Shown one piece after another: positions 9,660 to 64,000 of a DNA stretch of 64,000 nucleotides. The first letter of the stretch is position 1. Each line of letters begins with the position of its first letter. The stretch covers positions 1 through 64,000 of the forward strand of contig CAJXZG010000003.1 of assembly GCA_913063265.1 (NCBI GenBank), in the 5' to 3' direction. Source of the DNA: an uncultured Prolixibacteraceae bacterium (GTDB lineage Bacteria; Bacteroidota; Bacteroidia; Bacteroidales; Prolixibacteraceae). The position numbers were made by a program, and so were the translations under genes. The notes below the pieces were generated by a model, which saw only the letters and a list, made by a program, of their open reading frames with translations, did no database searches and was not told where the DNA came from.

Positions 9660-9673
9660 GTTTTGAAAAGCCC

Positions 9674-9748
9674 GAAGTCAGAAGCCCGAAGTTAGAAGCC
9701 CGAAGCTGGAAGAGCAATTCTGACTTCCGACTTCGAGCTTCGAGCTTC
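9674..9748. repeat. period-7 inverted tandem array (GAAGNNN/CTTCNNN), copy A
   Basis: GAAG recurs exactly every 7 bases at 9674, 9681, 9688, 9695, 9702 and 9709. After an 11-base spacer CTTC recurs every 7 bases at 9724, 9731, 9738 and 9745. The two arms can pair as an interrupted hairpin. It sits between the stops of two convergent genes. The same 6 + 4 unit architecture occurs at 32826-32902. Confidence 0.85.
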
Positions 9749-32825: not shown

Positions 32826-32902
32826 GAAGACGGAAGACCGAAGACCGAAGACGGAAGACCGAAGTAAGAATTACCAACTTCGAGCTTCTAGCTTCGTGCT
32901 TC
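32826..32902. repeat. period-7 inverted tandem array (GAAGNNN/CTTCNNN), copy B
   Basis: GAAG at 32826, 32833, 32840, 32847, 32854 and 32861, then CTTC at 32878, 32885, 32892 and 32899, all at exactly 7-bp period. Same 6 + 4 arrangement as copy A. It begins 6 bases upstream of the NUDIX start codon. Confidence 0.85.
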
Positions 32903-56029: not shown

Positions 56030-57217
56030 TTAGAAATTCCATTTTAAACGGGCGTATGCCACATTGGAGCCTGACCGGATATTTTCAATTTCAAGATTAA
56101 AATACTGGTACATCAGTGAAAAATAGAGATTTGAACTAATAGAAAAATCGATAGCAGGCATTAAAAAAAATCCCTGATAGTCAGGGTAGTACATTCCAGC
56201 AAGATTGGCTGTTAATATTGGACTTACGAGATAAGATAAATTGGCAAAGAGGTTATATTCGCTAAACGACAAACTTTTTGATGTAGAAGGTGCCTGAAAT
56301 ATTGCTGTTGGATTTTGATTAATGTCTATAAGTGTTTTTGGATCGTTGTATAAAAATTCCCATTGAATGGTCAGTTTATTTCCTACTAAATAATCGAATC
56401 CTACGCTGGCTAAAAATACACCACTTGTATCCGCAAAGCTTTCCTGAGAACGATAATAGTTTGCTTCTCCGCGAAATGCAACACTTCCAATATTTCCTTC
56501 CCAGCCTGTGCCAATTACAAAATCCTGTCCGTCAACATAACCTCCTAAAAACTGAATATCGTAACTCCATTTATTAAATTTATATAAACCGGCCAGGGAA
56601 AGATTTGATGCACTGTCGAGTTTAGTAACCAATTCTGCTGCAGAAGCAGTTCCAAAGTAATATTTCATTCTGAATGCATCGGAACCCGGACGTTCCATGT
56701 AATCTACATCGTAATAGGAAAAGGCGTTAAAAATGTCGTTAGGATTCCAAACCAAAGAGCGACCCCAGTTTACCCTTTGACGACCCACACTCAGTTCAAG
56801 ATTGTTATACATATATTCAATATAAGCCCTGTCAAACTGTGTATTCATAAAATTGTTACTGCCTTCCCACCAGTTAAAATTTAATCCAAAAAATCCTCGA
56901 TCTTTGGCAAAATTTCCGGCATAACCCGGGAAGTTTTTTACAGTTTGCCCCCAGATAAACTGATTGCGAAACTGAACATGAAAAGTAAAATTGTCGTTGG
57001 CATAGTAAGCCAGATTGATCCGGTTATGAAAAATATAATCGCTTAAAAACTGGTAATTGTCATTTTGGTCTTTTGCAAAACTGCTTTGGCCCATGTTTGA
57101 AATATATCCGTTAAAATCCAGTTTCGATTGAGACCACGTATAAACTGGGTACAACAGAAAAGAAATTACTAAGATTAGAATCAAATTTTTACTTATTATT
57201 TTTAAAATATATGCCAC
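56030..57217 (-). CDS. outer membrane beta-barrel (DUF1302-like)
   Basis: 395 residues with signal peptide (to about YTWSQ) and barrel strands to a final Phe. VGRQRVNWGRSLVWNPNDIFNAFSYY is the hallmark of the DUF1302/alginate-export-like barrels that accompany lipid export systems. It is the last gene of the TetR-LolA-FtsX-ATPase cluster, 182 bases after the ATPase, with dispersed palindromes between them. It may be the outer-membrane part of that system. Confidence 0.75.
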   Translation of the reverse strand: MAYILKIISKNLILILVISFLLYPVYTWSQSKLDFNGYISNMGQSSFAKDQNDNYQFLSDYIFHNRINLAYYANDNFTFHVQFRNQFIWGQTVKNFPGYAGNFAKDRGFFGLNFNWWEGSNNFMNTQFDRAYIEYMYNNLELSVGRQRVNWGRSLVWNPNDIFNAFSYYDVDYMERPGSDAFRMKYYFGTASAAELVTKLDSASNLSLAGLYKFNKWSYDIQFLGGYVDGQDFVIGTGWEGNIGSVAFRGEANYYRSQESFADTSGVFLASVGFDYLVGNKLTIQWEFLYNDPKTLIDINQNPTAIFQAPSTSKSLSFSEYNLFANLSYLVSPILTANLAGMYYPDYQGFFLMPAIDFSISSNLYFSLMYQYFNLEIENIRSGSNVAYARLKWNF

Positions 57218-57258
57218 TTTTTGTTGTATTTTGAATTTTACTTAATCATAAGTTCAGT

Positions 57259-57360
57259 GTCACCCTGTCCCGATAGCTATCGGGATTAGTTCAGGATCTT
57301 ATGAACATAGACTTGCTTTATCTTCAAAGAGATACTGAAATAAATTCAGCATGACGTTCT
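57259..57360. repeat. palindromes GTCACCCTG / TCCCGATAGC and ACTGAAATAAATTCAG
   Basis: TCCCGATAGCTATCGGGA is a perfect 18-bp palindrome (57269-57286), preceded by GTCACCCTG. ACTGAAATAAATTCAGCATG with the tail ACG (57333-57355) is a relative of the copy next to the GIY-YIG gene. Together they fill the ATPase-barrel gap. Confidence 0.65.
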
Positions 57361-57399
57361 AAAGATGTATCTGACAAATTACGATATTAATATTATGTG

Positions 57400-58107
57400 T
57401 TAATTATTAATTTTTTCTCCGCCGTTTTTACGGATATCGCTGATGATTTTTCCGTCCTCGATAGTTATTACTCGTCGTGCTTTCTTTACTACACGGGCAT
57501 CGTGGGTACTAAATACAAAGGTGATATTTTCTTCTTTATTGAGTTTTTCCATTATATCCAAAAGGGTTTCGGTAGATGTTGAATCCAGGTTAGCCGTAGG
57601 CTCATCAGCCAAAATGAATTTGGGTTTACTTGCCAGTGCCCGTGCCACTGCAACTCTTTGTTGCTGGCCACCAGACAGTTTTGCCGGACGTGCATTCATT
57701 CTTTCTCCCAGCCCGACTGATTTTAACAATTCCTCGGTGCGGGCATCGCAGTCTCTTGCAGATTTTCCCTGCAGCCGCATTACAAATTCTGTGTTTTCTT
57801 TAGCGGTTAAAACCGGAATAAGATTATATGACTGGAATACAAAACCGATGTTATTCAGACGAAAATCTGTTAATGCTTCACCTTTAAGTTCATTCATTTT
57901 GGTGCCGCCAACAAATACTTCACCTGAAGTAGGATCGTCTAATCCACCCACCATATTAAGCAAGGTGGTTTTACCGGAACCTGATGGGCCAACAATAGCA
58001 GCAAACTCACCTTCTTCGAAATCTAAAGTAACTCCATTAACTGCGTGTACTTTCACTTCTGATTCATTGTATGTTTTTCTTAAATCTTTTATTTCTATGA
58101 CTTTCAT
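57400..58107 (-). CDS. ABC transporter ATP-binding protein (LolD/MacB type)
   Basis: 235 residues. Walker A GPSGSGKTTLL (about residue 39), Q-loop NNIGFVFQSYNLIP, signature LSGGQQQRVAVARAL, Walker B FILADEPTANLD and H-loop STHD. Drives the two FtsX-type permeases encoded upstream. Systems of this type extract lipids or lipoproteins or act on cell-envelope proteins. Confidence 0.95.
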   Translation of the reverse strand: MKVIEIKDLRKTYNESEVKVHAVNGVTLDFEEGEFAAIVGPSGSGKTTLLNMVGGLDDPTSGEVFVGGTKMNELKGEALTDFRLNNIGFVFQSYNLIPVLTAKENTEFVMRLQGKSARDCDARTEELLKSVGLGERMNARPAKLSGGQQQRVAVARALASKPKFILADEPTANLDSTSTETLLDIMEKLNKEENITFVFSTHDARVVKKARRVITIEDGKIISDIRKNGGEKINN

Positions 58108-58179
58108 TTTATGTAGTATTATTTGTTGTTCTTTCTTTATAAATCACTTTTCATAACCAGTTTTTACTTCTTGACGGAA

Positions 58180-58203
58180 GTTGTTGGTTATTGGTTGTTG
58201 GTT
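58180..58203. repeat. period-7 tandem array TTGGTTN, one arm beside four-helix gene 1
   Basis: TTGG recurs at 58184, 58191 and 58198. On the coding (minus) strand the unit reads AACCAAC and lies directly after the stop codon. It faces the CAAACAA array at 58598 in inverted sense. Confidence 0.8.
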
Positions 58204-58569
58204 TTATGTTTTCCAGTTATTTTCAACATACTGTATAAACTTGTTGATTTTAGAACCTAAAACTTCAAATTTGTCAATTAATTCACAAAGTGGATTTTCT
58301 TCGAAATAAATTTCGCTGATCATTGTTAACTGAGAAGTAGTTTCATTACAGGAAGCTTGAGCGTAGGTTAAAAATTTTATAAATTCTGCTTTATATCTTT
58401 TTCGTCCATAACCTTCCGCAATTGTATCTTTAATACTTTTTGACGAACGACGAACCTGACTACCTTGCTCAAATAACTCAAATTTTGGTAATTTTAAACT
58501 AATATGATGAACTTCAATTGCCTGTTTATATGCAATCTTGTAAATGTCTAAATCTTTATAACTACTCAT
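58204..58569 (-). CDS. four-helix bundle protein (S23/bIVS family), copy 1
   Basis: 121 residues, all-helical. YKDLDIYKIAYKQAIEV, LPKFELFEQGSQVRRSSKSI and IAEGYGRKRYKAEF are the family motifs of S23-like proteins coded within intervening sequences of 23S rRNA genes, and related to Avd of diversity-generating retroelements. It is inserted between a permease and its ATPase, on the operon strand. It is bracketed by 7-bp-period arrays that are complementary. The nucleic-acid-binding role is inferred from the family. Confidence 0.9.
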   Translation of the reverse strand: MSSYKDLDIYKIAYKQAIEVHHISLKLPKFELFEQGSQVRRSSKSIKDTIAEGYGRKRYKAEFIKFLTYAQASCNETTSQLTMISEIYFEENPLCELIDKFEVLGSKINKFIQYVENNWKT

Positions 58570-58597
58570 AACTTATATTTTTAAGGTTAACTAATTT

Positions 58598-58626
58598 CAA
58601 ACAACAAACAACAAACAACAAACAAC
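58598..58626. repeat. period-7 tandem array CAAACAA, other arm beside four-helix gene 1
   Basis: CAAACAA starts at 58598, 58605, 58612 and 58619, exactly 7 apart. On the coding strand it reads TTGTTTG upstream of the gene. It is complementary, with one mismatch per unit, to the array after the gene. Confidence 0.8.
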
Positions 58627-58633
58627 TCTGATT

Positions 58634-60061
58634 TTATTCTGTTCTCAACGCATCGATTGGTTTAAGTTTTAAGGCTCTTCGTGCCGGCCCGATTGATGAC
58701 AATACACCAACAAGAATTACAAGTACAATAATTCCAAAGAAGAAATTAATTTCAATATTGGGATAAACAATCGCTGCGTAGCCTACAGCTTCAAAGCCTT
58801 CACCTACCGATGAAAAATCCAGTCCGGTGTGTCCTGTAATTTTCAGAACCAAAGCACCTAAAACCATTCCTATGACACTACCTGTGAAGGTCAGAAATAC
58901 AGTTTCAAGCATAATCATCAGAAAGACTTTCCTTTTACTCATGCCTATAGCCATAAGCATTCCCAGTTCTTTTATTCTTTCCATAATTGCCATTAACATG
59001 GTATTTACTATTCCGAATGCAAGAGCAAGAAAAATAATTCCCATTATGATAAAATAGTAAACATCCATAATGTCAGCCAACATTGCAGCATCCGGAGCCA
59101 ATTCTCTCCAGGTCATTACACTTGTTTCAGGAAATGTTGTACTAAGGGCAATTTGAACATCTTTCTCTGTTGTTTTATCGAGTTGAATAAGGGTTCCAAT
59201 TTCGTGATAATCATTTGGTCCAAATCCGGCTACTTTAGCCAAATCATCATGGAGTACAAAAGCATTCTGAACGTCGAATCCTGTATTGCTGGTTTTGTAA
59301 ATTCCACAAACCCTGTAAGATTGGTACGTCATCTCACCATTCATATCGGTGAACGTAAAAACAATTTTCGAACGCATTTGATAATTCTTGGCTAATTCAG
59401 TAATCAGGGTACCATATTTTCTTGCATCTATTGTACTGAGTTCCTTTTCAAAAGCTTTTCTGAATTTTGTTTTGGAGTAAAATCGTCGTCCTTCATATTC
59501 TTCAGCAACCTTCAAAACAGTGTCCGGTACTTGCAATGATTTTAGACTATCAATCAATTCAGAAGTAATTCGGAATGTTTTTATTCTTAATTGTTCAGCA
59601 GTTTTATCACTGATAACAATAGGATTTTGGTGTGTTACATCAAAGAAACTACCGGCACCTTCAACAATAAACTCATGTACATTTGAAACCAATTTTTCTT
59701 CTTCAAGTTGAATGCCTTTTAAAGTAACACTCGTATTTCCACGTGATGTAGCGGCCATCGCCACCACTTTTGAACGGCTTGTGTGGGCTTTAATACCCGA
59801 CATTGTGTCGATATATTGAATTACATTTTCGTATTTGGGAATGGTTAGCGTAATTTCTTCGTTGTTAAGATACTCCGGATTTTGAACTTTTAAATGCGAG
59901 GCCTCTGTAAAAATGGCTGCATTAACTCTTTGGTCAGACCATCCTTTCATTAATCCGGCCACAAAAACCCCTGCAACGGTTCCTAGCGTCACTGCGATAA
60001 TTACAATCAGGCTGCGGTGCTTGTTACGCCAAACGTTTTTCCATGAAATTGAACTTATCAT
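58634..60061 (-). CDS. FtsX/LolE-type ABC permease 1
   Basis: 475 residues. N-terminal helix after WKNVWRNKHRSLIVIIAV, a MacB-like periplasmic domain (about 40-330) and a C-terminal FtsX domain with three helices (GIVNTMLMAIMERIKELGMLMAIG is the coupling-helix region). Ends KLKPIDALRTE, typical of LolE/C relatives. Pairs with the permease at 60673. Confidence 0.93.
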   Translation of the reverse strand: MISSISWKNVWRNKHRSLIVIIAVTLGTVAGVFVAGLMKGWSDQRVNAAIFTEASHLKVQNPEYLNNEEITLTIPKYENVIQYIDTMSGIKAHTSRSKVVAMAATSRGNTSVTLKGIQLEEEKLVSNVHEFIVEGAGSFFDVTHQNPIVISDKTAEQLRIKTFRITSELIDSLKSLQVPDTVLKVAEEYEGRRFYSKTKFRKAFEKELSTIDARKYGTLITELAKNYQMRSKIVFTFTDMNGEMTYQSYRVCGIYKTSNTGFDVQNAFVLHDDLAKVAGFGPNDYHEIGTLIQLDKTTEKDVQIALSTTFPETSVMTWRELAPDAAMLADIMDVYYFIIMGIIFLALAFGIVNTMLMAIMERIKELGMLMAIGMSKRKVFLMIMLETVFLTFTGSVIGMVLGALVLKITGHTGLDFSSVGEGFEAVGYAAIVYPNIEINFFFGIIVLVILVGVLSSIGPARRALKLKPIDALRTE

Positions 60062-60150
60062 TGTTTTGTTTTATTTATTTGTTTGTTTATTTATGAGTGA
60101 TTTGTTTATGTGAATTGAAATTCGATTTATTCTCTTTTTTGGTTGAAAAT

Positions 60151-60191
60151 GATTGATGCTTCGCAGATTGATTGAGATTGAAGAAGATTGA
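60151..60191. repeat. period-10 array GATTGANNNN, one arm beside four-helix gene 2
   Basis: GATTGA at 60166, 60176 and 60186 (period 10), with another at 60151. It follows the four-helix gene on the coding strand, where the unit reads TCAATC. Confidence 0.75.
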
Positions 60192-60217
60192 TTTTATTTA
60201 AAGCTTTCTGTTTCATT

Positions 60218-60583
60218 TTAACTTAGTTTTTTTCTCATTGAAGCAAGGATTTTGAGTAACTCAATACTTTCTTTATGCAAATTTCGGATAAGTTTTGTTT
60301 CAGATATTTTTGAACAAATCAATAAATCGAGCCACATTTCTGTTTCATCTGCTTCTTCAACAGATATTGATAATTTGGCAAAGAATTCCGCTTTTGATCG
60401 ACCTCTTAATGCGGCCCTGTAATTTGCATAAGTTGATGAGCCAGATCTGGTTATTTGGCGATTAAGAATACGACCACGTTCAGATTTTGGCAAAGTTTCT
60501 GACAATTCCAAAATATCCAAAGCAAAAACTTTAAGCCTTTCTTTAATTTGCTTTTTATATTCTATCCAGCTATTATTATCCAT
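60218..60583 (-). CDS. four-helix bundle protein (S23/bIVS family), copy 2
   Basis: 121 residues, all-helical, from a subfamily different from copy 1. RILNRQITRSGSSTYANYRAALRGRSKAEFFAKL and EEADETEMWLDLL are the motifs of the other common four-helix subfamily. Inserted between permease 2 and permease 1 on the operon strand and flanked by 10-bp-period inverted arrays. The two genes share little sequence, so separate arrivals are likelier than a duplication. Confidence 0.9.
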   Translation of the reverse strand: MDNNSWIEYKKQIKERLKVFALDILELSETLPKSERGRILNRQITRSGSSTYANYRAALRGRSKAEFFAKLSISVEEADETEMWLDLLICSKISETKLIRNLHKESIELLKILASMRKKLS

Positions 60584-60614
60584 TGTTTATATTTTAATCA
60601 ACTTCAATGCTTAA

Positions 60615-60660
60615 TCTATCTCCATCAATCTCCCTCAATCTCCCTCAATCTCCCTCAATC
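60615..60660. repeat. period-10 array TCAATCTCCC, other arm beside four-helix gene 2
   Basis: TCAATC at 60625, 60635, 60645 and 60655 with near-identical TCCC between. On the coding strand it reads GATTGAGGGA, upstream of the gene, and can pair with the array downstream. Confidence 0.8.
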
Positions 60661-60672
60661 CATTCAAACTTC

Positions 60673-62079
60673 CTAAGCTCTCAGAGCTTTCATTAATTTC
60701 AGTTTTCTTATACTTTTTAACGGGAAAAAACTTGCACCAATAACCATCAATACAACTATAACAGCCTGCCACCAGAAGTATGGATCAAAACTTGCCATTG
60801 GCATAACCGCCTCATATCCCATTTCTTCGTACATTTTTGCTGTTTCTCCGCTTAATTGAATCGGAAACTTATTTCCGAGATATACAAGAGGGGAGGAGGC
60901 AATCATTCCGGTTATGGCTCCCAGCGCACCAATAAAAACCATCTCAATAATTACCACATACATCAACAGGCGCTTTTTCATTCCGATGGCATTCAGAACT
61001 CCAAATTCACGTTTACGTTCTGCAATCATCATTAATACTGTTCCAAAAATTCCAAAGAATACAATTACATACAAAATGACTATAAATACCACTCCTCCAA
61101 CACTGTCACCCTCAATGGTTTGTTTTAATATCGGATTAAATTCTTCCCAGTTTTTTACCACATATTTATTATTATCCAAATTAGAACTTAAGGATTTTTG
61201 GACTACCAACATTTCACTGTTATCATGCAAATTTATGGCCAAAGTGGTAAGCATATTTTCCATGCCATAAAATTCCTGGGCTCTTGTTAATGACATATAA
61301 ACCAATTTGTTATCAAGTTCAGGCGATGGTATTTTAACGATACCGCGAACAGGGAATAATCCTGCTGCAGTAGAACCGTGATATCCGGTTCCCATCAGAA
61401 CAAGTGTGTCTCCAATTTCCAGTTGCATAAATTTTGATAACCGGTCTGAAACCAATATTCCATCGTCATTTTCTTTTAAGTATGAACCTTCAAATGCAGT
61501 GATTTTTCCTATTTTTTCAAGTATTTCCTGATCATCAATCCCGCAATTCAAACTGATTTTATTGAGCGAATTAAATGATGCGTTTTCATAAATTTTCAGA
61601 TTGTCAATTTCGTCTTCAGTAAGACCGAGAATTTTATATACCTCATCCATTATTTTACTATCGAATCTGTAACGAACCAGATTTCTCTCAGGATCAGACA
61701 ACCGGGCTTCTTTTTCTACATCGATTCCATTCACCATAATACCTTTTGACTTTACTCCAATTGATGCCAGTGCAAAAGATTCAACCCGCGGCACTGCAAT
61801 TTTTACTTCCGGATGATTGTTAATACTGTTTAGCAATTCATCACTATATTCAAAAGAGTTATCCAGACCAGGCTCATCGAAATAATCAGGACTTTGCAGT
61901 TGGAGAAAACCTGTATAAGTTTCTATACTTTGATGAATCATATGGTCATATGTGCCCAGCTGAAATGAGCGCATAACAATGGCAAAAAATATAGCAAAAA
62001 ATATTGAAGCCGAAGTTATTATTGTACGTTTCCGGTTACGCCAGATATTTCGCCATGCCATTTGTGTTATTCGTTTCAT
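60673..62079 (-). CDS. FtsX/LolC-type ABC permease 2
   Basis: 468 residues. MAWRNIWRNRKRTIITSASIFFAIFFAIV at the N-terminus, a periplasmic MacB-like domain, then three C-terminal helices with GTVLMMIAERKREFGVLNAIGM in the coupling region, ending SIRKLKLMKALRA. Partner of permease 1 and the ATPase at 57400. The first cistron after the LolA-like gene, 117 bases away across a repeat tract. Confidence 0.93.
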   Translation of the reverse strand: MKRITQMAWRNIWRNRKRTIITSASIFFAIFFAIVMRSFQLGTYDHMIHQSIETYTGFLQLQSPDYFDEPGLDNSFEYSDELLNSINNHPEVKIAVPRVESFALASIGVKSKGIMVNGIDVEKEARLSDPERNLVRYRFDSKIMDEVYKILGLTEDEIDNLKIYENASFNSLNKISLNCGIDDQEILEKIGKITAFEGSYLKENDDGILVSDRLSKFMQLEIGDTLVLMGTGYHGSTAAGLFPVRGIVKIPSPELDNKLVYMSLTRAQEFYGMENMLTTLAINLHDNSEMLVVQKSLSSNLDNNKYVVKNWEEFNPILKQTIEGDSVGGVVFIVILYVIVFFGIFGTVLMMIAERKREFGVLNAIGMKKRLLMYVVIIEMVFIGALGAITGMIASSPLVYLGNKFPIQLSGETAKMYEEMGYEAVMPMASFDPYFWWQAVIVVLMVIGASFFPLKSIRKLKLMKALRA

Positions 62080-62130
62080 TTGTAATATATTTAGTACAGC
62101 GTATTTTATAATTAGCAGTTTGAAAAATCG

Positions 62131-62190
62131 CAGTCTCGGTTTCCAGTCTCAGTTTTCAGTTAACAAAAAACCAACAACCAACAACCAATT
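62131..62190. repeat. adjacent solo repeat arms, CAGTCTCNGTTT and CCAACAA
   Basis: CAGTCTCGGTTTC and CAGTCTCAGTTTT (13-bp period) run to about 62160. CCAACAA then repeats every 7 bases at 62171, 62178 and 62185. No complementary arm and no gene are present: these look like single arms left over, or a start of the same architecture. Confidence 0.6.
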
Positions 62191-62196
62191 CTTCAT

Positions 62197-62946
62197 CTAT
62201 CTTACTCTTTTCATATTTTGTTGTGAAAAGAAATTCTCTTTAATATCTACATCGAACTCAATAAAGTCGATGGTAATAATCGTTCTGTTTTCCGGTTCTT
62301 CTGCAGGAATAATTTCAATTACTGAGGGTAACTCCCGCCCATCAAAACTTTTTACATCTATTCCCAGTTCGGTTCGAACCAAAAACTCCTCCTCATCGTA
62401 ATATTCGCTTTTAAGGTTGATATATTTTTTTTTATCGACCCATGTTAAAATTTTTCCCCAAACTACATTGGCATCACTGTTGGGAACCATCTGTATGTTG
62501 TAGCATTCTCTTCCATCAATTACCTCTTCTCCAATAATTGTATGGGTGTAGTCGTTTACAATCGATGATTGTTTTACCAAATCATCATTGGTATAATCAG
62601 AACCCATCCAACCTTGCGACATCATGCTTGGTGGCAGTTTTATCATTCGGTTGATTGACGGAGTATAGCTCCACATCTCTTTTTTATATTTCATCGAAAC
62701 CATGCCCTTGTCTTTCGACGGGGCAGTCACATAGGTCATAAAATAATCACGTCCCAGACTCCAGTTTTTAAAAGCAATTGTGCGTGTATATTTCGGTCGA
62801 ACAATGGTCATTTTCATTTCACTTTTATTGGAATCGCCCTGAAGTTTATCATCCATTTTTTTGATAATTTCACGTGCATCCTGAGCACTGGATTGTAATG
62901 TAAATCCTGAAATAATCAGGATAAAAATGATTTGATTTATTGTCAT
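62197..62946 (-). CDS. LolA-like outer membrane lipoprotein-sorting protein
   Basis: 249 residues, signal peptide to about SSAQ. The domain from DAREIIKKMDDKLQGDSNKSEMKMTIV, with GRDYFMTYVTAPSKDKGMVSMKY and the MWSYTPSINRMIKLPPSMM hydrophobic pocket region, matches the uncharacterised LolA-like (PF17131) group, half LolA barrel. Acts as a periplasmic carrier for the permease pair. Start at 62946 (MTINQII) chosen for signal peptide. Confidence 0.88.
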   Translation of the reverse strand: MTINQIIFILIISGFTLQSSAQDAREIIKKMDDKLQGDSNKSEMKMTIVRPKYTRTIAFKNWSLGRDYFMTYVTAPSKDKGMVSMKYKKEMWSYTPSINRMIKLPPSMMSQGWMGSDYTNDDLVKQSSIVNDYTHTIIGEEVIDGRECYNIQMVPNSDANVVWGKILTWVDKKKYINLKSEYYDEEEFLVRTELGIDVKSFDGRELPSVIEIIPAEEPENRTIITIDFIEFDVDIKENFFSQQNMKRVR

Positions 62947-62977
62947 TCTGTGTAATTTTCTGCAATTGAACATTTTT

Positions 62978-63568
62978 TTATTTTTTTAAAATTTTAAAAC
63001 ATGCATCGATAACTTTATCGTCAAGTTTTTCCCTGGTAAATATTTTAGGTGCGGTAACACCGGTGATGTATGCACCTTTTAGCAATGAAGAAATTACTAA
63101 TAGGTCAGATTCAGGATCTTTACTACCTGAATTGATTATAAACTGGTAGAACATTTTGAATATTTTTTGAGTTGATTCGCTGTAATCGTGTTGAAATGAC
63201 TCAGTTACTTTAGGTTGAAACATTAAAGAAAAATATAATTTCCAAAATTCTGTATTTTCCCGCATGATATCAAAAGAATGTTTTACAAAATGCCTGAATT
63301 CATCTTCACTTAAAACACCATCGTTGTTTAAATCAAAGTCTGAATAAATGGAATTAAATCCTTTTTTGATAATTTCATCTAGAATATCCCTTTTACTTTC
63401 AAAGTAGTTGTAAGTAAGGCCTTTTGATATTTTTGCTTTTTTGGCAATCTGACTAATTGAAGTGGCATGGAACCCGTTTTCTGCGAATAATTCCAATGCC
63501 ACATTCAATATAAGTTCTTTTTTCTGTGTTCTGATGTCGTTGAATTGTTCTGCACTCTTTGGAGACAT
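62978..63568 (-). CDS. TetR family regulator with an EF-hand loop
   Basis: 196 residues. N-terminal HTH (about 16-62, ATSISQIAKKAKISKGLTYNYF). Directly after it, residues 79-90 (DLNNDGVLSEDE) match the EF-hand calcium loop at every consensus position: D1, N3, D5, G6, hydrophobic 8, S9, E12. The rest is a helical ligand domain. It heads the export operon and likely represses it. Two boxes with CGRTTGGTCAA lie upstream (63789, 63854). Calcium as effector is a proposal from sequence. Confidence 0.9.
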   Translation of the reverse strand: MSPKSAEQFNDIRTQKKELILNVALELFAENGFHATSISQIAKKAKISKGLTYNYFESKRDILDEIIKKGFNSIYSDFDLNNDGVLSEDEFRHFVKHSFDIMRENTEFWKLYFSLMFQPKVTESFQHDYSESTQKIFKMFYQFIINSGSKDPESDLLVISSLLKGAYITGVTAPKIFTREKLDDKVIDACFKILKK

Positions 63569-63641
63569 GGCTTTGTAGCTTGTTAATGTTTAAATTCTAT
63601 CCATCATAAAAAAAATGGTCACTAAGATCTAATTTTTGTTT

Positions 63642-63718
63642 GAAGCTCGAAGGCAGAAAACCGAAGTTTGTTAGTGTTTCTTTCTTGTTTTTCTTCAGAC
63701 TTCGAACTTTCACCTTCA
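63642..63718. repeat. period-7 inverted tandem array (GAAGNNN/CTTCNNN), copy C
   Basis: GAAG at 63642, 63649 and 63663 with GAAA at 63656; CTTC at 63693, 63700 and 63714 with CTTT at 63707. All starts are 7 bases apart. Spacer of 23 bases. It is a shorter and partly degenerate relative of copies A and B. It lies in a 431-base region with no gene upstream of the TetR start. Confidence 0.8.
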
Positions 63719-63788
63719 GACCAATTTATATTTTTTAGAACTTTTTTCCGTCTTTACATTATAGTGTATTGTTGGTATAAAAACAATA

Positions 63789-63868
63789 TTGACTGAACGG
63801 TTGGTCAAAGATAAATCAAGAATTTTTAATAAACAAGTTATTTTGTAAAAAAATGACCGATTGGTCAA
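63789..63868. promoter_or_regulatory. two probable TetR operators
   Basis: TTGACTGAACGGTTGGTCAA (63789-63808) and TGACCGATTGGTCA (63854-63867). They share CGRTTGGTCAA, and TGACC/GGTCA of the second is a near-perfect dyad. They lie 220 and 285 bases before the TetR start; a divergent gene beyond the right edge may be the main target. Confidence 0.55.
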
Positions 63869-64000
63869 TTTTGTTGGATTGGTATAAAACTGCAATGATT
63901 TAATTATTGCCCCGCCATGCTTTTACATATCTTTTTTCAGATAGGATGTTTACTTACATAGTAATTTGCACATTCACTTTGTAATTTAGATATCAATCGA

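Follow-up and report, generated by a model that had tools for sequence, protein, structure and literature searches.

S23 proteins are known from insertions in rRNA, and to our knowledge no role has been established for them. The intervening sequences (IVS) of 23S rRNA also exist in forms without an open reading frame (ORF). The IVS of Coxiella is 428 nt long, has a 28-bp terminal stem, carries an S23 ORF and is cut by RNase III in vitro (PMC4990558; here and below, statements on cited papers refer to excerpts of their texts). Stems made of complementary 7-nt repeats occur in P6b of the cyanobacterial trnL group I intron (PMC4476775), and heptamer arrays, including TAACTGA, have been described in Beggiatoaceae, Bacteroidetes and Geobacter (PMC4679880; PMC2700814); in one survey, long simple repeats were most often heptamers in the majority of the genomes covered (Mrazek 2007, cited in PMC4679880). 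Avd, found in diversity-generating retroelements, and PF05635, the Pfam family of the S23 proteins, are treated as homologous (PMC10053308). Here we describe S23 genes placed between complementary arrays of short repeats in the spacers of an ATP-binding cassette (ABC) export operon. The stretch analysed, referred to as the window, comprises 64,000 nucleotides of an uncultured Prolixibacteraceae bacterium (GenBank assembly GCA_913063265.1, contig CAJXZG010000003.1, positions 1 to 64,000).

S23 genes and complementary arrays in the window and in other genomes

Two small genes of the window, S23-A and S23-B, belong to the S23/IVP four-helix-bundle family (PF05635), and one of them lies in each of two adjacent operon spacers, the gene order being permease 1, S23-A, permease 2, S23-B, ABC ATPase. 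Each is the sole ORF (80-aa limit) between two arrays, which we call the 5' and 3' arms and read on the coding strand; gene and arms together are called a cassette.

57400..58107, minus strand, ABC ATPase of the host operon (PF00005)
58180..58203, minus strand, 3' arm of S23-B, AACCAAC-type heptads x3 (Tandem Repeats Finder: GTTGTTG x3.4, period 7)
58204..58569, minus strand, S23-B, ORF of 121 aa (PF05635, E 8.9e-24, 84.2 bits; TIGR02436, 85.1 bits)
58598..58626, minus strand, 5' arm of S23-B, TTGTTTG heptads x4 (Tandem Repeats Finder: CAAACAA x4.1, period 7)
58634..60061, minus strand, FtsX-type permease 2 of the host operon (PF02687; orthologues L040-L042)
60165..60193, minus strand, 3' arm of S23-A, TCAATC units (Tandem Repeats Finder: AGATTGATTA x2.9, period 10)
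60218..60583, minus strand, S23-A, ORF of 121 aa (PF05635, E 7.3e-15, 55.5 bits; TIGR02436, 78.4 bits)
60618..60660, minus strand, 5' arm of S23-A, GATTGAGGGA decads x4 (Tandem Repeats Finder: ATCTCCCTCA x4.3, period 10)
60673..62079, minus strand, FtsX-type permease 1 of the host operon (PF02687)

An earlier note on this DNA had described these genes and arrays, and its coordinates, array positions and periods all agree with the ORFs and with the output of Tandem Repeats Finder. Both proteins score above the curated cut-offs of Pfam PF05635 (33.8 bits) and NCBIfam TIGR02436 (24 bits). The nearest solved structure to S23-B by sequence is 2gsc (XCC0516; E 5.4e-4), described in the title of its paper as an assembly of five four-helix bundles. 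The complementarity of the two arms around each gene, also claimed in the note, was confirmed with a score of 30 for copy 1 (S23-B), reached by 18 of 2000 dinucleotide shuffles, and of 36 for copy 2 (S23-A), reached by none of 2000. Copy 1 by itself is only moderately significant, and the case therefore rests on family-wide statistics.

The layout was analysed across genomes by aligning the 260 bases upstream of each S23 gene with the reverse complement of the 260 bases downstream (inverted flank score). An S23 gene is present in 34 of 41 genomes of relatives and in 114 of 148 genomes of the phylum, and 64 loci came from named genomes. Matches were turned into loci only in part, largely best score first: from 202 matches to a hidden Markov model, 193 of them full length, 145 loci were obtained after 41 near-duplicates, six loci with short flanks and one with N had been dropped. 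A score of at least 30 is reached by 72 of these 145 loci and by 6 of 215 control genes (small non-S23 genes from the same loci), and a score of at least 34 by 60 loci and by none of the controls; in direct orientation, only 14 loci score at least 30. Split by source, loci scoring at least 30 number 6 of 9 in the host genome, 23 of 57 in relatives, 11 of 25 in the phylum draw and 32 of 54 in named genomes. An earlier, smaller set gave 66 of 132 loci at this threshold, and 92 of 132 beat 25 shuffles. Strong short-period arrays are found upstream of 69 and downstream of 61 of the 145 genes (12 and 9 of the 215 controls, respectively), with a period of 7 or 14 in 46 of the 69 and 43 of the 61, and G exceeds C in 56 of 66 5' arms on the coding strand. 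The check proposed in the earlier note, a search of flanks in other genomes for inverted arrays, came out in its favor as regards complementarity. These counts support the conclusion that an S23 gene between complementary arrays is a frequent layout of the whole family and is not peculiar to the window.

A second set of 30 S23 loci, from 17 genomes filed outside Bacteroidota, was chosen once the pattern was fixed. The genomes are labelled as Planctomycetes, Omnitrophota, Deltaproteobacteria, WOR-3, Calditrichia, Cloacimonadota, Aerophobetes, a Thermoplasmata archaeon and a Clostridia bin, labels that could be wrong in part because all are titled metagenome bins, and each had supplied one locus to the first collection. 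Among the 26 loci with enough flank, 17 score at least 30, 15 at least 34, and two in direct orientation; without three genes already present in the first set (scores 20, 24, and 26), the counts are 17, 15, and 1 of 23, respectively. One locus (L211) combines an inverted flank score of 60 with a direct-orientation score of 76. Two S23 matches of genome G259, L212 (G259:C132:35079-35399) and G259:C128:50706-51026, lie within open frames of 424 and 363 aa, and are possibly S23 domains fused to larger proteins.

The host genome itself (5.49 Mb, 190 contigs) contains nine S23 genes, all of which have related words on both sides as judged by eye; six loci score at least 30 (L001, L004, L005, L006, L007, and L009), and the other three (L002, L003, and L008) score 23, 24, and 26, respectively. 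A scan of ten neighbors of the seven loci outside the window identified triose-phosphate isomerase (tpiA), a Gfo/Idh-type dehydrogenase, an ABC ATPase, pyruvate:ferredoxin oxidoreductase, glycine C-acetyltransferase (kbl), argG on one side with argC on the other, and a TRAP permease. These functions are unrelated, and the link to ABC export, which the earlier note had made part of the layout and which holds in the window, is therefore not general. A specificity of S23 genes for ABC exporters was ruled out, as most other S23 genes of the host genome adjoin unrelated genes.

The S23 gene is sense to both neighbors in 124 of 139 loci, antisense to both in three, and mixed in two groups of six (the mixed case L005 is artefactual, caused by a long antisense ORF that overlies the ATPase); the remaining six of the 145 loci lack a neighbor. 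In the second set, 22 of 24 loci with both neighbors are sense to both. The cassettes thus lie inside same-strand gene series. Neighboring genes of the host genome are on the same strand in 250 cases, convergent in 54 and divergent in 51. In same-strand spacers, sense and antisense should be about equally frequent for an insert indifferent to direction. The bias points to transcription, although promoter dependence alone could also yield it.

Presence, exchange and arm words of the cassettes

Comparison of the same spacers in related genomes revealed filled, empty, remnant and replaced versions. Permease 2 has three orthologues in the genus (79-80% identity). Between permeases 1 and 2, the host genome and G009 carry S23-A with GATTGA-type arms, G047 has a different S23 gene whose arms are of the TTAGAA type, and G007 retains a truncated remnant of S23-A. 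Between permease 2 and the ATPase, the host genome and G009 carry S23-B, G047 has one array with no gene, and G007 has an empty spacer of 51 bases.

A second ABC operon, encoding an outer-membrane efflux protein, HlyD, two ATPases and two ABC-2 permeases, was compared in eight genomes of the genus, at the spacers between its genes f6 to f2: (i) at f6-f5, S23 is present in six of the eight, a 5' arm remnant is left in L193, and L197 has an unrelated ORF of 198 aa between like arms; (ii) at f5-f4, S23 is present in five, two spacers are empty (12 and 22 bases) and one has an array of one polarity; (iii) at f4-f3, S23 is present in one, and the other seven have short gene-less arrays, inverted by eye, with scores of 12-23 given without a shuffle control; and (iv) at f3-f2, S23 is present in all eight. 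The search for empty sites in relatives, suggested in the earlier note, was therefore successful. As seen by eye, the first heptad often begins with the stop codon of the upstream gene, and no target-site duplication is apparent between empty and filled spacers of the eight genomes, a negative weakened by the divergence of the relatives. The orphan ORF of L197 (L197:2770-3366), flanked by CAGT/ACTG heptad arms where relatives hold S23, is a possible alternative cargo; it has no Pfam, PADLOC or PHROG match and is present in only one of 101 genomes, its own.

Two near relatives, L191 and L192, whose operon proteins are 97% identical, differ sharply at spacer f3-f2: compared in steps of 60 bases, identity is 88-100% in the adjoining genes and 51-87% across the 5' arm, S23 gene and 3' arm. 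Synonymous differences per site amount to 0.19 in f3 and 0.15 in f2, vs. 0.76 in S23. The opposite case is provided by L192 and L193, with 0.30 in S23 vs. 0.45 and 0.49 in the host genes. We conclude from these contrasts that cassettes, arms included, were exchanged between species at the same spacer. Moreover, at f3-f2 the two arms of a cassette are more similar to one another than to the arms of its orthologues in the eight genomes (32.9 vs. 19.5; 1 of 5000 permutations). These observations support the view that the gene and its arms behave as one exchangeable unit.

The words of the arms follow the subfamily of the S23 protein. Among 86 S23 loci with arms (score of at least 28), the fraction of locus pairs whose arms score at least 24 against each other rises with S23 identity, from 0.00-0.01 (below 40%) through 0.05 (40-50%) and 0.17 (50-60%) to 0.46 (above 60%). 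The coupling is strand-specific, the fraction for the opposite strand being at most 0.01. The Mantel correlation of arm words with S23 identity is 0.47 (0 of 2000 permutations), and it remains 0.34 for pairs under 60% identity and 0.51 for 37 named loci (0 of 2000 in both). Most of the S23-B relatives listed carry GGTT-containing heptads, as judged by eye. In the stretches examined, several of them on short contigs, none of the 64 named S23 loci matches either permease of the window, and four have a weak match to the ATPase; one S23 subfamily with similar words therefore occupies unrelated sites.

As estimated from substitution rates, the S23 gene is under purifying selection: omega is 0.05-0.19 in the five S23 pairs with usable synonymous divergence (dS), and 0.04 in one host gene. 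One near-identical S23 pair, with an omega of 0.51, is uninformative, and in two pairs dS is saturated.

Explanations of the cassettes

In the explanation towards which we lean, the cassette belongs to mRNA spacers as a mostly selfish, IVS-like element, with arms that probably pair in the transcript and an S23 protein that recognizes its own arms. The unit consists of a 5' array of G-rich short words, the S23 gene and a 3' array of complementary C-rich words, packed in operon sense into the gap from one operon gene's stop codon to the following gene's start codon. It would depend on read-through transcription from the host operon. In the transcript, the arms would pair and place the S23 gene in the loop. 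An S23 oligomer would then bind its own arms, which would explain why the words follow the protein subfamily, and RNase III or another nuclease would process the stem, which would keep the harm to the host operon small. Cassettes are seen to be exchanged between relatives at one and the same spacer, and a spread to unrelated operons is implied. By minimum-free-energy folding of a random draw of 50 of the 86 armed cassettes, at least half of the 5' arm pairs with the 3' arm in 45 of 50, and in 17 of 50 with a shuffled 3' arm, a result that mostly restates the complementarity.

Several observations weigh against this explanation. Inverted flank scores are below 30 in 73 of the 145 loci, and in only 62 of 132 cases does a gene's own 3' flank score better than all 25 taken from other S23 loci, because words recur between elements. 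Own arms match no better than those of orthologues at f6-f5 (1361 of 5000 permutations) and f5-f4 (1589 of 5000), two spacers with little variation in the words. The extra synonymous differences between L191 and L192 extend about 18 nt into the end of f3, which makes a homologous import of the same spacer from a relative, with edges near the gene ends, possible. No nuclease, transposase or reverse transcriptase is encoded within the unit. Finally, selection for RNA pairing would favor G-U over A-C among the mismatches of the arms, and no sign of it is seen on the coding strand (92 G-U vs. 79 A-C, p 0.36), under a looser alignment (138 vs. 130) or in seven gene-less hairpins (3 vs. 8). The earlier note had proposed IVS-like elements folding so that the operon mRNA is cut or the insert is looped out; the layout, the sense position and the exchange as a unit speak for the first part, whereas the cutting or looping-out of a stem gains no support from the counts of G-U and A-C mismatches.

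A further group of such observations concerns arrays located apart from S23 genes. The pattern GAAGnnnGAAGnnnGAAG, representing GAAG heptads, has 170 matches in the host genome vs. about one expected (an estimate from even base counts and 12 fixed bases); since GAAG is the same read backwards, the control pattern was uninformative. The first 100 of the 170 matches form 45 clusters, and only one of them (C44:20164-20255, at L003) lies at an S23 gene. Six of the 45 have strict arrays on both strands, with GAAG first in all six. Among 20 unique array loci (GAAG and GGTT), 15 have no complementary arm scoring at least 26 within about 600 bases; the other five have one, in GAAG/GGTT-first polarity, and none has the opposite polarity. 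GGTTnnn has 15 matches in the genome, including 58186 (the arm of S23-B) and 62169 (in the next spacer of the window), and CAGTnnn has no match in the host genome. The next spacer contains the following feature:

62131..62188, minus strand, gene-less arrays in the LolA-like/permease spacer, GGTTGTT array then ACTGnnn array on the coding strand (Tandem Repeats Finder; GGTTNNN match 62169-62186)

Two gene-less, two-armed GAAG/CTTC heptad hairpins were also distinguished in the window, one at 9667-9748 between convergent ORFs (GAAGnnn/CTTCnnn, with words like those of the L003 arms) and the other at 32826-32902 beside two minus-strand ORFs. The operon of the window is headed by a TetR-family regulator gene (62978-63568) with an EF-hand-like stretch (PF00036, E 9.9e-6, 25.2 bits; cut-off 25.4), and looser GAAG...CTTC arrays are located upstream of this gene (63640-63730). 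In 464 kb of the genome, inverted repeats scoring at least 32 were found in 18 of 248 spacers, two of them heptad-like by eye, a scan that undercounts gene-less hairpins, as it missed those at 9667 and 32826. The words of gene-less hairpins are not significantly closer to those of S23 cassettes of the same genome (22.5 vs. 18.5; 1280 of 20000 permutations; seven of the eight genomes, with two spacers shortened by the choice of start codon). The earlier note had regarded genome-wide arrays of this kind, associated with S23 genes no more than by chance, as evidence against its proposal: arrays are indeed common without S23, but the S23 genes themselves are strongly tied to arrays. An S23 gene thus strongly predicts arrays, and an array does not strongly predict an S23 gene.

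Among the alternatives, action of the arms at the level of DNA is the least improbable, although we consider it unlikely. The arms would be inverted tandem sites similar to the terminal inverted repeats of transposons, S23 an accessory binder, the nuclease would be supplied in trans, and the gene-less hairpins would resemble miniature inverted-repeat transposable elements (MITEs). This would account for the strand symmetry of the arm mismatches (92 G-U vs. 79 A-C), for the existence of gene-less arrays, including the six two-strand clusters of 45 with the G-rich arm first, and for one S23 subfamily with similar words at unrelated sites. It agrees poorly with the sense bias of 124 to 3, such a strong bias being unusual for a DNA transposon, with the lack of a nuclease gene in the unit, and with spacers that show no target-site duplication by eye. 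A host-domesticated module for regulation or mRNA stability, in which the hairpin tunes the neighboring operon genes and S23 is an autoregulator binding the hairpin, seems to us slightly less likely still. The strong purifying selection found for S23 (five usable pairs, omega 0.05-0.19), the sense position between operon genes and the presence of S23 at f3-f2 in all eight genomes are as expected of such a module, but its erratic presence at other spacers of the same operon, the unrelated host functions (argG/argC, tpiA, pyruvate:ferredoxin oxidoreductase, kbl, and TRAP permease) and the replacement of alleles between near relatives are not.

The heptad arrays might also be generic slippage products of spacers, with S23 genes merely among them, an idea that draws on the 170 matches of one heptad class, the single S23-linked cluster of 45 from the first 100, and the general abundance of heptamers among long simple repeats (Mrazek 2007, cited in PMC4679880). 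We regard it as very improbable: it is already disfavored by the flank controls, which lack complementary flanks (0 of 215 at 34 or more), and by the coupling of words to S23 subfamily across species, and arms and gene are replaced together.

If a main home of S23 is a mobile cassette of operon spacers, as in the IVS-like explanation, the arms provide the protein with a partner that can be tested; the origin of some of the scattered bacterial heptad repeats is explained; and operon spacers turn out to house elements now annotated as 'four helix bundle protein' beside unannotated repeats. More tentatively, the cassettes could represent a widespread selfish class in mRNA spacers of many bacterial phyla, gene-bearing and gene-less, with S23 proteins that recognize word-specific heptad arms of their own. 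The rRNA IVS would be no more than the members of this class that were noticed first, and the rapid turnover of words, in step between the two arms, would reflect co-evolution of the S23 oligomer and the arms.

Comparison with known systems

The heptamer repeats of the TAACTGA type resemble the cassette arms in being 7-nt arrays, mostly intergenic and in part from Bacteroidetes; unlike the arms, they are nearly all direct repeats, located mostly 5' of start codons, and the terms 'four helix' and '23S' are absent from both texts (PMC4679880; PMC2700814). The trnL P6b stems share with the cassettes complementary 7-nt repeats of variable length, an RNA context and replacement of one repeat class by another, but they are part of a group I intron, and the excerpts mention no gene in the loop, the term 'open reading frame' being absent from the whole paper (PMC4476775). 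Pairing arrays of period 7 are present in copy 1, whereas the period is 10 in copy 2; most strong arrays across the family are of the former kind. Avd is a related four-helix bundle, and two S23 proteins of L197 match Pfam bAvd below the cut-off; unlike a diversity-generating retroelement, the cassette has no reverse transcriptase (no search of the genome for one was made).

We found no paper tying S23-type genes to such arrays, which is weak evidence of absence, as broad queries were checked at top ranks only. In Flavobacterium columnare 94-081 and ATCC 49512, a four helix bundle gene lies between the genes for guanylate kinase and nicotinate-nucleotide adenylyltransferase and was assigned to a predicted phage region, with arrays unmentioned in the excerpts (PMC5524665); it may be a cassette of the same kind.

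The 23S rRNA IVS is among the closest described systems. No Rfam match was found at positions 57000-64000 of the window or in 20 of 30 S23 loci (L211-L240), and the cassettes of the window sit between permease and ATPase genes, not in 23S rRNA. With the IVS of Leptospira, Coxiella and other bacteria they share an S23 ORF inside complementary ends and a sporadic presence; they differ in that the host is the spacer of a protein-coding operon and the arms are tandem arrays of short words, and stem processing has been seen for the IVS (PMC4990558). What is new here is the occurrence in operon spacers of S23 cassettes that are IVS-like and have inverted arrays of specific words.

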